Assembly: GCA_036496605.1 (NCBI GenBank)
Contig: DASXKV010000001.1
Location: 1-64,000 of the forward strand
Origin: Gemmatimonadaceae bacterium
Lineage (GTDB): Bacteria > Gemmatimonadota > Gemmatimonadetes > Gemmatimonadales > Gemmatimonadaceae
Length of the DNA: 64,000 nucleotides
Direction of reading: 5' to 3'
Shown here: one piece after another, positions 10,631 through 18,433 of the stretch
How the letters are laid out: the number at the start of each line of letters is the position of its first letter
Position numbering within the stretch: position 1 is the stretch's first letter
The notes under the pieces: generated by a model
The model's input: only the letters and a program-made list of their open reading frames with translations
Told to the model about the DNA's origin: nothing
The model's database searches: none
Made by a program: the position numbers and the translations under genes

Positions 10631-11929
10631 TTATTCGTACCGCAACGCATCGATTGGATCGAGTCGCGCCGCGCGCCGCGCCGGGAGAAGACCGAACACG
10701 AGCCCGAGCGACACCGACACCAGCACGGCCACCGCGGTGAGATTCAACGGCGGAACCGCGTGGACGTGCATCAGAAGTGTGATCACGCGGCCGAGCCCGA
10801 GTCCGACGAGAATCCCAATCACGCCGCCGGCGCCAGTGAGGGTCGCTGCTTCGAAGAGGAACTGCAAGAGAATGTCGGCGCGCGTCGCACCGACCGCTTT
10901 GCGCACACCGATCTCGCGCGTTCGCTCCGTCACGCTGATCATCATCACCGCCATCACGCCGATCCCGCCGACCAGCAACGCGACTCCCGAGAGCGCGATC
11001 ATCACGAGGAAGAAGACACCCGTCAGCTTGTTGAACACATCGAGTATCTGATCCTGCGTGATCATGTCGAAGGTGTTATGGTCCGCCGGACGGAGGCGCC
11101 GCATCTCGCGCAGCGCAATCGTCACCGCTTCCTGTGCATCGATGACCGTGACTCCGGGATTCGGCTTCACCGGTATGTACAGCGCGACGGTCTTGTCGAT
11201 CGTGAACTGATGATCGAGCATCGCAAACGGCACGATTCCAGCGATCTCCTGACCTGGGGGTTTGAAGATGTTCGCCGCCGGTTGGTAGATACCGACGACA
11301 CGCGCCGGACGACCGCCGAGCCTAACGAGTTTATCGAGTGGCGAGACCGCCCCGAAAACCTTTCGAGACACGTCGGCGTCGAGCACGACGACCGCGGCGC
11401 CGCTGGTGAGCTCGGCGTGGGTGAACCACCGGCCCGAGGCGAGATCGCCACCTTGAATCTCGGTGAAGCCGTCGTCCGCTCCCATGATGGCCTGCGGCTG
11501 CGTGCGCACCCCATTGTATTCGACGCGCTGGATCACCTGCGCCCAGATGCTCGCGTACGCGATCATCGGGAGGGTAGCGATGCGCTCGGCTTCATCTCGC
11601 GTCAGATCGGGGCGAACGCGAATCCACTTCGGGAGCCGGTCCGGATTGAGCGGGGTCTGCGAAAAGACTTTCATCACGTAGAACGTCGTCGGGCCCGCAA
11701 TCTCGATCGTTTCCACGATCTGATCGCGAATCCCCTGGACGATCGACGCCATCGCCATGACGACCGAGACGCCGATCACCACTCCGAGTACCGTGAGCCC
11801 CGAACGAAGCTTGTTCGCGCGCAGCGAATCGAACGAGAGCGTGATCGTCTCGCGGAGATTGGCGAGGAATCTGATCCACGCGGCGCGCCGCACCACGGTA
11901 CGTTCGCGAGGGGCTTTGGACGCCATCAT
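10631..11929 (-). CDS. MacB-type ABC transporter permease, type B, copy 3
   Basis: A 432-aa MacB/FtsX-like permease without an ATPase domain. The N-terminal part reads SLRANKLRSGLTVLGVVIGVSVVMAM in overlapping pieces, with the first membrane helix near residues 45-65. A periplasmic MacB_PCD domain of about 230 residues follows, then three C-terminal helices (FFLVMIALSGVALLVGGIGVM, the SVTERTREIGVRKAVGATR cytoplasmic loop, and two more). It ends in LDPIDALRYE, the tail that marks the B type. It is the last gene of the export operon and its start overlaps the stop of A3 by 4 bp. A basic N-terminal extension of about 25 residues makes it longer than B1 and B2. Confidence 0.85.
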   Translation of the reverse strand: MMASKAPRERTVVRRAAWIRFLANLRETITLSFDSLRANKLRSGLTVLGVVIGVSVVMAMASIVQGIRDQIVETIEIAGPTTFYVMKVFSQTPLNPDRLPKWIRVRPDLTRDEAERIATLPMIAYASIWAQVIQRVEYNGVRTQPQAIMGADDGFTEIQGGDLASGRWFTHAELTSGAAVVVLDADVSRKVFGAVSPLDKLVRLGGRPARVVGIYQPAANIFKPPGQEIAGIVPFAMLDHQFTIDKTVALYIPVKPNPGVTVIDAQEAVTIALREMRRLRPADHNTFDMITQDQILDVFNKLTGVFFLVMIALSGVALLVGGIGVMAVMMISVTERTREIGVRKAVGATRADILLQFLFEAATLTGAGGVIGILVGLGLGRVITLLMHVHAVPPLNLTAVAVLVSVSLGLVFGLLPARRAARLDPIDALRYE

Positions 11930-13167
11930 TCCGCCCTCAGCGCGGTGACTGGATCGAGACGCGCCGCTCGAGTCGCCGGGTAGACCCCGAACAGAACGCC
12001 GACGCCGGCGCCTAACGACAATGCCATCACGACGGACCAGGTCGTGACGCGAGCCGGCAGCGGCGACACCGCGGCGATCGCCGTCGAGAACAGCCAGCCG
12101 CCGAGCGCACCCGTGGCACCGCCGAGCGTTGCCAGCATCACCGCCTCGGCGAGGAATTGCGCCTGGATGTCGCGTCGGGTCGCGCCCACCGACTTGCGCA
12201 GCCCGATCTCGTGGGTGCGCTCACGAACCGACATCAGCATGATGTTCATGATGACGATGCCGCCGACGAGAATGCCGATGCCGACGACCGCCGGAACGAC
12301 GCTGAACAGCACGCTCGTCAGGCTCTTCCAGAAGCTGATCAGCGCGTCGGACGTCTCGATCGAGAAATTATCGCCATCGTTAGGTTTCAGGCGATGCGCA
12401 ATACGCATCGCCTCCTGCGCTCGTGCCATGGCGTCTCCGACCATGGTCGCATCCGGCATCTTCACGGAGATCGTCGTCGTCTGGCGCCGGCCGTACATCG
12501 ACTCGAACGTGGAGAACGGAAGCATCACGAAGCCGTCGAACGACTGGCCGAGGATCTTTCCTTTTCGCGCGACGACGCCAACGATCGTGAAGAGATCTCC
12601 GTGGATACGAATCTGACGGCCCACCGGATCGATCGTCTCGAACAGCTTCTCCGCGATCTCGGCGCCGACCACACAGACGTAGCGTCGCTCGCGCACGTCC
12701 ACGTCGCTGAGCGGTTGACCCGACGAGAAACGGTAATCCTTCACGACCTGGTAGTCCGGCGTGATGCCGAAAACGAGCACATCGCCTAACGTGCGATCGC
12801 CCCAGACGATGTCCGATTGCGGCGTTGGATAACCCGACGTCAGACTGATCGCCGTCGCCTCGGGGAGCGCCTGTCGCACCCCCGCCGCGTCTTCGGGTGT
12901 GATCTTCGGGCGTCGGAGCACAACGCGCCAATCATCCTCGTTGAAGAGTCCGACGCGTGCCGGCATGCGTCGCACCTCGAAGGTGTTCGTGCCGACCACA
13001 TTGTCGGCGATATTCTCTTTGACGTACGCGTTCATCCCCTGGATGATCGCGACGACGGCGACGAGAAAGGCCACGCTGACAATGATGCCGAGCAACGTGA
13101 AAAACGAGCGAAGTTTATTCGCCCGCAGCTGCCGGAACGCCGTCAGGAGAACATCGTCGAAGCGCAC
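11926..13167 (-). CDS. MacB-type ABC transporter permease, type A, copy 3
   Basis: The most likely start is GTG 13165-13167, giving 413 aa and the usual N-terminus RFDDVLLTAFRQLRANKLRS. A1 and A2 are also exactly 413 aa, which supports this choice. The frame stays open upstream to an ATG at 13242 and beyond, but those residues lie in the hairpin element between cassettes. First helix about 21-45, periplasmic domain about 50-275, three helices after about 285 with the loop SVRERTHEIGLRKSVGATRRD, and tail LDPVTALRAE. Octamer copies are at 12010 and 12784. It forms a presumed heterodimer with B3, whose gene overlaps by 4 bp. Confidence 0.85.
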   Translation of the reverse strand: MRFDDVLLTAFRQLRANKLRSFFTLLGIIVSVAFLVAVVAIIQGMNAYVKENIADNVVGTNTFEVRRMPARVGLFNEDDWRVVLRRPKITPEDAAGVRQALPEATAISLTSGYPTPQSDIVWGDRTLGDVLVFGITPDYQVVKDYRFSSGQPLSDVDVRERRYVCVVGAEIAEKLFETIDPVGRQIRIHGDLFTIVGVVARKGKILGQSFDGFVMLPFSTFESMYGRRQTTTISVKMPDATMVGDAMARAQEAMRIAHRLKPNDGDNFSIETSDALISFWKSLTSVLFSVVPAVVGIGILVGGIVIMNIMLMSVRERTHEIGLRKSVGATRRDIQAQFLAEAVMLATLGGATGALGGWLFSTAIAAVSPLPARVTTWSVVMALSLGAGVGVLFGVYPATRAARLDPVTALRAE

Positions 13168-17181: not shown

Positions 17182-17191
17182 GAGTAGTTCC

Positions 17192-18433
17192 TCATTCGCT
17201 GCGCATCGCGAGAATCGGGTCGAGGCGCGACGCCCGGCTGGCCGGATACGCGCCGGCAACGACGCCAACGCCGCCGCCGACGGCGACGGCGAGTACGATC
17301 GACCATGGCGCGACGGCCGCCGGCAGCGGGGATACCTTTGCCACCACCTCCGCGAGCGTCACCCCGAGGCCGACGCCGATGAGTGCGCCCATTGAGCTCA
17401 ACGTCGCCGATTCCACGAGGAACTGCGCGAGGATATCACGCCGGCGCGCACCTAGCGACTTGCGGATTCCAATCTCCCGCGTCCGCTCGGCGACGGCGAC
17501 GAGCATGATGTTCATGATCACGATCGCGCCAACGACGAGCCCGATCGCCGGCAAGAAAATGCCCGCCATCACCATGAACTTGCGGATCGTCCGCCACTGG
17601 CTCAGCGCCGACTCCGAGCTCTCGAGCACGAAGTCGTCGCCTTCGGCGGGTCCGAGACGATGGCGCTTCCGCATCAACTCCCGCACGATCTCCTCGAGAC
17701 CACCGAACGCCGCCGGATTCGGAGCCTGCACCACGACGCCGTAAAGATTGTTCCGCGCGCCGGTGATGCGTGACATCTCCGAATGGAATGGCGCGATGAC
17801 CTGACGATCCAGCGCCAACCCGAATACCGTGCCCTGTTTCTCGAGAACGCCGATGACAGTGAACGGGAAGCGGTGAATGCGAATCTCGCGGCCGATCGGA
17901 TCGAGACTTGGGAAATACCGCTCGGCAACCTCCTGACCGATGACGATCACCGGCGCACCAAGCGCATCCTCCTGCTCGTTGTACACGCGTCCTTTCGAGA
18001 GCGCGAGATCCTTGATCAGGAAGTACTCTGGCGTCGCTGCTTCAGCCATGACCTTGGGGCCGCCTTGCGCGAATGGCGAGCTCGCATCGGTACGCGTGAC
18101 GTCGTGCATCGCCCACCGCGACCCGGGCGGTAATGCCTCTCGCACCGCGAGCGCGTCGTCGACCTGGATCTTCGGCCGCCGCTGCCACGCCTTCCACTCG
18201 TCCTCGGTGACGTCGTTCTGAATGTCCGGGAACCTGCGCAGGTTGAACGTATTCACGCCGAGGAACTTCCCGGCGAAATCCTCCTCCACGTAGCGATTCA
18301 TCCCCTGCACGATCGAGACGACGGCGATCAGGAACATCACGCTGATCGTGACGCCGATGAGCGTGAAGAAGCTCTTGAGCTTCTGCACGCGCAGCGTACC
18401 CAGAGCGAGGCGAACGGCTTCGAAAAGAGGCAT
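17192..18433 (-). CDS. MacB-type ABC transporter permease, type A, copy 1
   Basis: A 413-aa permease starting at ATG 18433 (MPLFEAVRLALGTLRVQKLK). The first helix is about 20-45 (FFTLIGVTISVMFLIAVVSI). The periplasmic MacB_PCD domain (about 50-280) is followed by three helices with the loop AVAERTREIGIRKSLGARRRD, and the tail is LDPILAMRSE. It is the first permease after the ATPase gene, separated from it by a purine-rich/pyrimidine-rich element at 18434-18512. The frame stays open upstream of 18433, but that part only reads through the element. MacB-type systems use ATP in the cytoplasm to drive substrate movement between periplasm and outer-membrane channel rather than across the inner membrane. 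Confidence 0.87.
   Translation of the reverse strand: MPLFEAVRLALGTLRVQKLKSFFTLIGVTISVMFLIAVVSIVQGMNRYVEEDFAGKFLGVNTFNLRRFPDIQNDVTEDEWKAWQRRPKIQVDDALAVREALPPGSRWAMHDVTRTDASSPFAQGGPKVMAEAATPEYFLIKDLALSKGRVYNEQEDALGAPVIVIGQEVAERYFPSLDPIGREIRIHRFPFTVIGVLEKQGTVFGLALDRQVIAPFHSEMSRITGARNNLYGVVVQAPNPAAFGGLEEIVRELMRKRHRLGPAEGDDFVLESSESALSQWRTIRKFMVMAGIFLPAIGLVVGAIVIMNIMLVAVAERTREIGIRKSLGARRRDILAQFLVESATLSSMGALIGVGLGVTLAEVVAKVSPLPAAVAPWSIVLAVAVGGGVGVVAGAYPASRASRLDPILAMRSE

Follow-up and report, generated by a model that had tools for sequence, protein, structure and literature searches.

Descriptions of tripartite pumps usually give each set a single inner-membrane transporter. In the MacAB-TolC systems of E. 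coli, A. baumannii and A. actinomycetemcomitans, a TolC channel and a MacA-like adaptor are encoded with a transporter whose MacB-type nucleotide-binding domain (NBD) is fused to a MacB-fold permease, which has a large periplasmic domain and a coupling helix between the second and third transmembrane helices (TM2 and TM3). The LolCDE lipoprotein extractor has a separate LolD-type ATPase and one pair of paralogous MacB-fold permeases, and passes its cargo to LolA without an adaptor or TolC. Here we analyze an operon in a 64,000-nucleotide (nt) stretch of DNA from a Gemmatimonadaceae bacterium (GenBank assembly GCA_036496605.1, contig DASXKV010000001.1, positions 1 to 64,000 of the forward strand; the window), which encodes a TolC, a MacA-like adaptor, one ATPase and six MacB-type permeases in three tandem A–B pairs, or cassettes. 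The operon has the channel, adaptor, NBD type and permease fold of MacAB-TolC, but its ATPase is a separate protein of 264 amino acids (aa) and its permease is a pair of A–B paralogues, present three times. It resembles LolCDE in its separate LolD-type ATPase and two paralogous permeases, the heterodimer being proposed here, but it includes an adaptor and TolC and its pairs are multiplied. We favor the reading, with a probability of about 0.6, that the operon encodes a MacAB-TolC-like exporter in which alternative A–B heterodimers share one ATPase, one adaptor and one TolC.

Precedents exist for the separate features of such an arrangement. In actinobacterial Mce systems, YrbEA and YrbEB are deep sister clades whose branching is nearly the same, and mycobacteria have a single Mkl ATPase for several operons (PMC1810536). 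There too permease pairs diverged as pairs, with mirrored trees, and several sets apparently run on one ATPase (PMC1810536), but the permeases are of an unrelated family (DUF140), the systems are importers, and the sets lie in separate operons with Mce proteins. Similarly, the multitask ATPases MsmX and MsmK each energize several permease sets of sugar importers (PMC7658222); these are type I importers whose ATPase is encoded apart, whereas the window operon is type VII exporter-like with all sets in tandem. The ADOP (TIGR03434) and YbbP-type proteins are also doubled MacB-fold permeases, but as single long chains rather than separate chains of 413 to 432 aa. The review passages considered (including PMC5985334) present MacB-family permeases in three forms, namely homodimers, heterodimers of the LolCE type and fused doubles, and mention no arrays of pairs. 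By analogy, the window operon would combine the parts of MacAB-TolC, the stoichiometry of LolCDE and the ATPase sharing of Mce/Mkl. A literature search on MacB permease arrays, Gemmatimonadetes MacB, ADOP and shared-ATPase exporters, which covered few subscription journals, returned no description of this system, and an exporter of the MacB type in which several permease pairs go with one ATPase apparently has not been described in the literature searched.

The genes of the operon run on the minus strand from TolC down to position 10631, as follows.

20605 to 22116, minus strand: TolC-family outer-membrane channel, 503 aa (PF02321, E 1.3e-35); adjoins the adaptor gene in nearly all related loci
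19310 to 20587, minus strand: MacA-like periplasmic adaptor, 425 aa (HlyD_D23/HlyD_3; top NCBIfam matches MacA and RND_mfp)
18513 to 19307, minus strand: ABC ATPase of the LolD/MacB type, 264 aa, sole ATPase gene of the operon (PF00005)
17192 to 18433, minus strand: permease A1, cassette 1, class alpha, 413 aa (PF12704 and PF02687)
15925 to 17181, minus strand: permease B1, cassette 1, 418 aa (PF12704 and PF02687)
14572 to 15813, minus strand: permease A2, cassette 2, class gamma by clade placement, 413 aa (PF12704 and PF02687)
13296 to 14567, minus strand: permease B2, cassette 2, by clade placement, 423 aa (PF12704 and PF02687)
11926 to 13167, minus strand: permease A3, cassette 3, class III, 413 aa, GTG start (PF12704 and PF02687)
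10631 to 11929, minus strand: permease B3, cassette 3, class III, 432 aa, 4-nt overlap with A3 (PF12704 and PF02687)

This inventory of one channel, one adaptor, one ATPase and six permeases ordered A1-B1-A2-B2-A3-B3 had been proposed in a sequence-only reading of the DNA, and its coordinates, order, strand and lengths are confirmed. Remeasurement likewise bore out the uniform 413-aa length of the A copies, the C termini (MRSE, LRQE and LRAE among the A copies, ALRYE in every B copy) and the tight A–B junctions of +10, +4 and −4 nt. Identity among the A copies is 56% (A1-A2), 41% (A1-A3) and 36% (A2-A3), and among the B copies 52% (B1-B2), 41% (B1-B3) and 41% (B2-B3), while A and B copies are 30 to 33% identical to each other.

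All six permeases match MacB_PCD (PF12704) and FtsX (PF02687) above both Pfam cut-offs, placing them in the MacB/FtsX superfamily (type VII ABC transporters). Predicted models of A1 and B1, with predicted local distance difference test scores of 85 and 84, share an amphipathic helix at the N terminus and four long helices. A large alpha/beta periplasmic domain separates TM1 from TM2, a coupling helix links TM2 to TM3, and there is a short helix (minor coupling helix) at the C terminus. In the A1 model the long helices span residues 18–58, 273–316, 331–367 and 376–402, with the coupling helix at 318–326 and the C-terminal helix at 406–411, and the B1 layout is equivalent. The closest solved structure to both is 5xu1_M (A1: Z 30.9, root-mean-square deviation 4.3 over 381 residues; B1: Z 31.2, 5.4 over 382 residues). 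The top structural matches as a group are this S. pneumoniae MacB-like permease, the LolE and LolC chains of LolCDE, and MacB (Z 20 to 31), and sequence searches are consistent with them. The same combination of four helices, periplasmic domain and coupling helix is given for MacB in a review (PMC5985334), and the models thus assign A1 and B1 the MacB fold with its four-helix topology. The proteins score below the curated family models: against the NCBIfam MacB equivalog (cut-off 966 bits) the permeases reach 146 to 193 bits and the ATPase 260; against LolC/LolE the permeases reach at most 56 of 362 bits, far below the cut-off; and the ATPase reaches 229 of 308 bits against LolD. The ADOP model, which describes a single chain of about 800 aa, gives the permeases 106 to 189 bits (cut-off 622).

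The A–B cassette behaves as a unit. In a 113-row permease tree, A copies form one clade and B copies another (Shimodaira–Hasegawa-like approximate likelihood ratio support 90 and 98), and so the mixing of A and B copies that would have spoken against cassette duplication is not seen. Over 212 unique cassettes from relatives, the correlation between A and B distances is 0.955; partner swaps within loci lower it to 0.18 ± 0.03, and 0 of 2,000 shuffles reach the observed value. In all 172 tests the nearest relative of an A copy and the nearest relative of its partner B lie in the same cassette (68 expected), and the A-only and B-only trees (50 copies each) have 34 of 47 branches in common, compared with a mean of 7 and a maximum of 16 after within-locus swaps. 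Strict A–B alternation holds at 250 A-to-B junctions of related loci, with three exceptions and a median gap of 17 nt. Because this alternation recurs so widely, the order in the window is not due to chance. One locus (L080) has its entire third cassette in inverted orientation. These data strongly support the A–B cassette as the duplicating unit, with A and B partners that co-diverged as pairs.

The cassettes are also old. In a concatenated tree they split into a class III, which includes cassette 3 of the window, and the rest. Class III counts 62 cassettes, each from a different locus, in families f1 and f2. It takes the last place in every one of the 56 multi-cassette loci where it is present, though in L080 the class III cassette is the inverted one and hence trivially last on its own strand. 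Cassettes 1 and 2 of the window fall into two classes of family f1, alpha and gamma; the other classes are beta and delta, and the arrangement seen most often is beta-delta-III (21 loci). Separate, later duplications are seen in family f2 and in genus g4. Since the window cassettes represent three separate old lineages, the trees rule out a recent triplication. Of the sequence-only suggestion that a heterodimer cassette had been triplicated, the cassette unit therefore stands, by clades, co-divergence and the L080 inversion, while the triplication does not. Instead, whole pairs would have duplicated in place long before this species arose, after which cassettes would have been kept, lost, inverted or moved as units. 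This history bears on the notion that the cassettes are near-redundant copies kept for dose rather than for different substrates. Copy number does vary from one to four among relatives, with a single cassette in some Gemmatimonadaceae operons, as dose would allow. However, selection for dose would favor recent, similar copies, whereas the cassettes are ancient and divergent (36 to 56% identity within A or B) and belong to separate old classes, no class being present twice in 63 of 70 multi-cassette loci. We consider this explanation unlikely.

Related loci were fetched from genomes of the phylum, and to these were added the best 80 matches obtained by searching named species genomes with the adaptor. 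Nearly all of these 80 are labeled Gemmatimonadota or Gemmatimonadaceae, one being Roseisolibacter sp. H3M3-2, and adaptors of related operons are 49 to 75% identical to that of the window. A profile of the A copies (E ≤ 1e-70), at a threshold that also admits B copies and some other MacB-type permeases, matches 147 of 150 genomes of the phylum, and the same operon was found throughout the fetched Gemmatimonadota loci. Cassettes were counted in 75 deduplicated operons with at least 1.3 kb beyond the last permease. One cassette is present in 19 (13 with an ATPase gene, 6 without), two in 32 (31 with one ATPase gene, 1 without a detected one), three in 23 and four in 1, and the operons of the last two groups all have a single ATPase gene. 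Another operon with four cassettes (L020) is slightly too short for the length filter. In total, 55 of the 75 operons combine a single ATPase gene with two, three or four cassettes. The outlying families f4 to f8 have a single A–B pair in all sampled loci apart from one (L038). As first read in the window, a single ATPase, adaptor and TolC for each array is the rule among the related loci. Four extra A–B cassettes (L017, L019, L054 and L055) have no ATPase, adaptor or TolC gene within the fetched 16–17 kb.

The ATPase itself has intact Walker A, LSGGQ, Walker B and H-loop motifs, and its best NCBIfam match is the MacB NBD, followed by LolD. An alternative would be that it is not shared, so that some cassettes are driven by ATPases encoded elsewhere, or are non-transporting like the orphan long permeases. 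The genome of the window contains 150 MacB_PCD matches, a very large expansion, most of them in frames of 800 to 1000 aa, the size of orphan ADOP permeases, which would fit this alternative. In addition, six operons of family f5 (L037, L042, L043, L044, L047 and L048) read TolC-adaptor-A-B without an adjoining ATPase gene, and the closest ATPase relative in these genomes, 62 to 68% identical, is encoded elsewhere; the pairs there may therefore take their ATPase in trans. On the other hand, the ATPase gene is present in 68 of the 75 operons, never more than once whatever the cassette number and always ahead of cassette 1, and Walker A, the signature (LSGGQ) and Walker B (DEPT) are intact in 113 of 113 relatives. 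An ATPase that is not shared appears improbable on this evidence, slightly more so than retention for dose.

In the mechanism that we propose, the inner-membrane unit would be an A–B permease pair, each pair forming a heterodimer in the fashion of LolC-LolE. The coupling helices of both permeases would be the docking site for a dimer of the single LolD/MacB-type ATPase. The conduit would be completed by the MacA-like adaptor together with TolC, and the three cassettes of the window would provide three alternative heterodimers competing for one ATPase, adaptor and channel. The heterodimerization, the sharing of ATPase and adaptor, the difference in substrates and the direction of transport are what we infer. 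A review describes MacB-fold transporters as mechanotransmitters rather than carriers across the inner membrane (PMC5985334), and by analogy the pump is probably powered in this way, with ATP binding zipping the stalk helices and squeezing periplasmic substrate into the adaptor. On the same source (PMC5985334), the three permease pores of the sequence-only reading are doubtful and probably wrong for this fold. Because transporters of this fold are described as not passing substrate through an inner-membrane pore, each A–B pair is best seen, by this analogy, as an alternative periplasmic pump head. Consistent with this arrangement, the ATPase-facing coupling loop is 0.76 (A) and 0.84 (B) identical among paralogues, compared with 0.35 (A) and 0.33 (B) for the periplasmic domain. 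With a common ATPase-facing loop and divergent periplasmic domains, the cassettes probably differ in the periplasmic substrates that they gather.

Could several A–B pairs instead join into one larger complex? The genes do lie in a fixed order in one run, with class III always last, but cassette number and classes vary freely between one and four, which a fixed assembly would hardly tolerate, and in the solved MacAB-TolC (reviewed in PMC5985334) one MacB dimer sits in the adaptor ring with three MacA per MacB. We regard such a complex as very improbable.

Several observations weigh against the proposal that alternative A–B heterodimers share one ATPase. The contrast between loop and periplasmic domain is equally strong between loci (A: 0.78 vs. 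0.39) and is thus a family trait; a pair-specific signature, in which faster periplasmic divergence would be confined to paralogues, was rejected on this ground, and loop conservation fits ATPase sharing without proving it. The same genome encodes seven further ATPases with E < 1e-40 to the operon ATPase, the nearest 55% identical, which could serve some cassettes. Co-divergence of partners is also expected from tight linkage alone. A coevolution analysis aimed at the dimer interface, by regularized inverse covariance over 212 concatenated pairs (112 effective) placed A–B couplings at 23 of the top 50, about the random proportion, and these drop to 9 of the top 50 after partner swaps, as shared ancestry predicts. 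Finally, L038 carries two adjacent B permeases (A-B-B). In a different picture, A and B would not dimerize together; the operon would instead specify as many as six MacB-like homodimers, whose genes are translationally coupled in pairs. Both MacB and FtsX form homodimers (PMC5985334), the coupling loop and C-terminal coupling helix are kept in both A and B so that either could dimerize symmetrically, and linkage alone could hold the pairs together. Yet the strict alternation, the inversion of the L080 pair as a whole and the persistence of A–B order in pairs outside the operon suggest, though not decisively, that A needs B. Homodimers are unlikely in our estimate, and we retain A–B heterodimers as the preferred reading.

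The following genes flank the operon.

22257 to 22979, minus strand: upstream protein with a signal-like N terminus, 240 aa, possible accessory part (DUF6134, E 1.8e-5, under its cut-off)
Within 5077 to 10535, downstream of the operon: BshB1-type (bacillithiol-type) deacetylase, tryptophan 2,3-dioxygenase-like, iscS-like and mnmA-like genes

The BshB1 gene (TIGR04001, above cut-off) comes first downstream of the operon and is followed by the tryptophan 2,3-dioxygenase-like gene, with putative iscS-like and mnmA-like genes, recognized by reading the sequence, further downstream; a creatininase-family protein is also encoded upstream. The sequence-only reading had proposed a synteny comparison, and partial synteny is found across the phylum. 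Among 114 related loci, counted without correction for contig ends and duplicate loci, tblastn places a match to the 240-aa protein upstream of TolC, no more than 1.5 kb away, in 75, the BshB1 gene lies within 1.5 kb in 58, and an iscS-like gene lies within 7 kb in 47. The operon is widespread in Gemmatimonadota, at a partly syntenic place. Because this partial synteny is common to single- and multi-cassette operons (e.g., L040, L042, L045, L013 and L030), the cassettes most likely multiplied in place. The secreted-looking 240-aa protein is a possible accessory part of the system. Separately, an apparently intergenic stretch at 8336 to 8644 of the window contains a short reiterated motif (VRLGSWS-type repeats in one frame).

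Three gaps precede the cassettes, each with a predicted hairpin.

18434 to 18512, minus strand: 79-nt gap between the ATPase gene and A1, weak hairpin (fold −34.7 kcal/mol, z −2.3)
15814 to 15924, minus strand: 111-nt gap between cassettes 1 and 2, strong two-level hairpin (fold −65.2 kcal/mol, z −8.9)
13168 to 13295, minus strand: 128-nt gap between cassettes 2 and 3, strong two-level hairpin of different sequence (fold −63.2 kcal/mol, z −5.7)

The inner stem of the 111-nt gap, CCGGCGAGC..GCTCGCCGG, belongs to a dispersed hairpin family: it is found at 13 sites across the genome, around loops that vary, compared with 0 for the reversed control. That of the 128-nt gap is unique in the genome. 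Searches of the gaps found no Rfam family of structured RNA, and promoter and terminator scans of them did no better than shuffles. The gap hairpins look like dispersed or independent intergenic hairpins; it is possible that they set the expression of each cassette. The spacing of 110 to 130 nt between pairs, correctly read in the window, does not hold elsewhere. B–A gaps in related loci range from a few nt to 4 kb (median 90) and some enclose a major facilitator superfamily (MFS)-like or other gene; this variation rules out the spacer as a conserved part. In seven loci (L024, L056, L063, L115, L133, L145 and L146), a gene of about 397 codons with an MFS-transporter-like start lies between the second and third cassettes.

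Gemmatimonadota are a common phylum of soil and water whose physiology is little known, and the cassette arrays are a widespread, apparently undescribed feature of it. Only the permease pair is varied, up to fourfold, while the ATPase, adaptor and channel stay single, and the occurrence of one to four units across the phylum suggests one machine with swappable front ends. We tentatively propose, at a little under even odds, a combinatorial tripartite pump in which one ATPase, adaptor and channel would be used in turn by several dedicated A–B heterodimers. As part of this proposal, and held just as tentatively, the interchangeable heads would come from five or more old lineages (beta, alpha, gamma, delta and III) that form an ordered set. 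The arrays offer a clean comparative system for distinguishing the parts of MacB-type permeases that choose substrate from those that talk to the motor and the adaptor.

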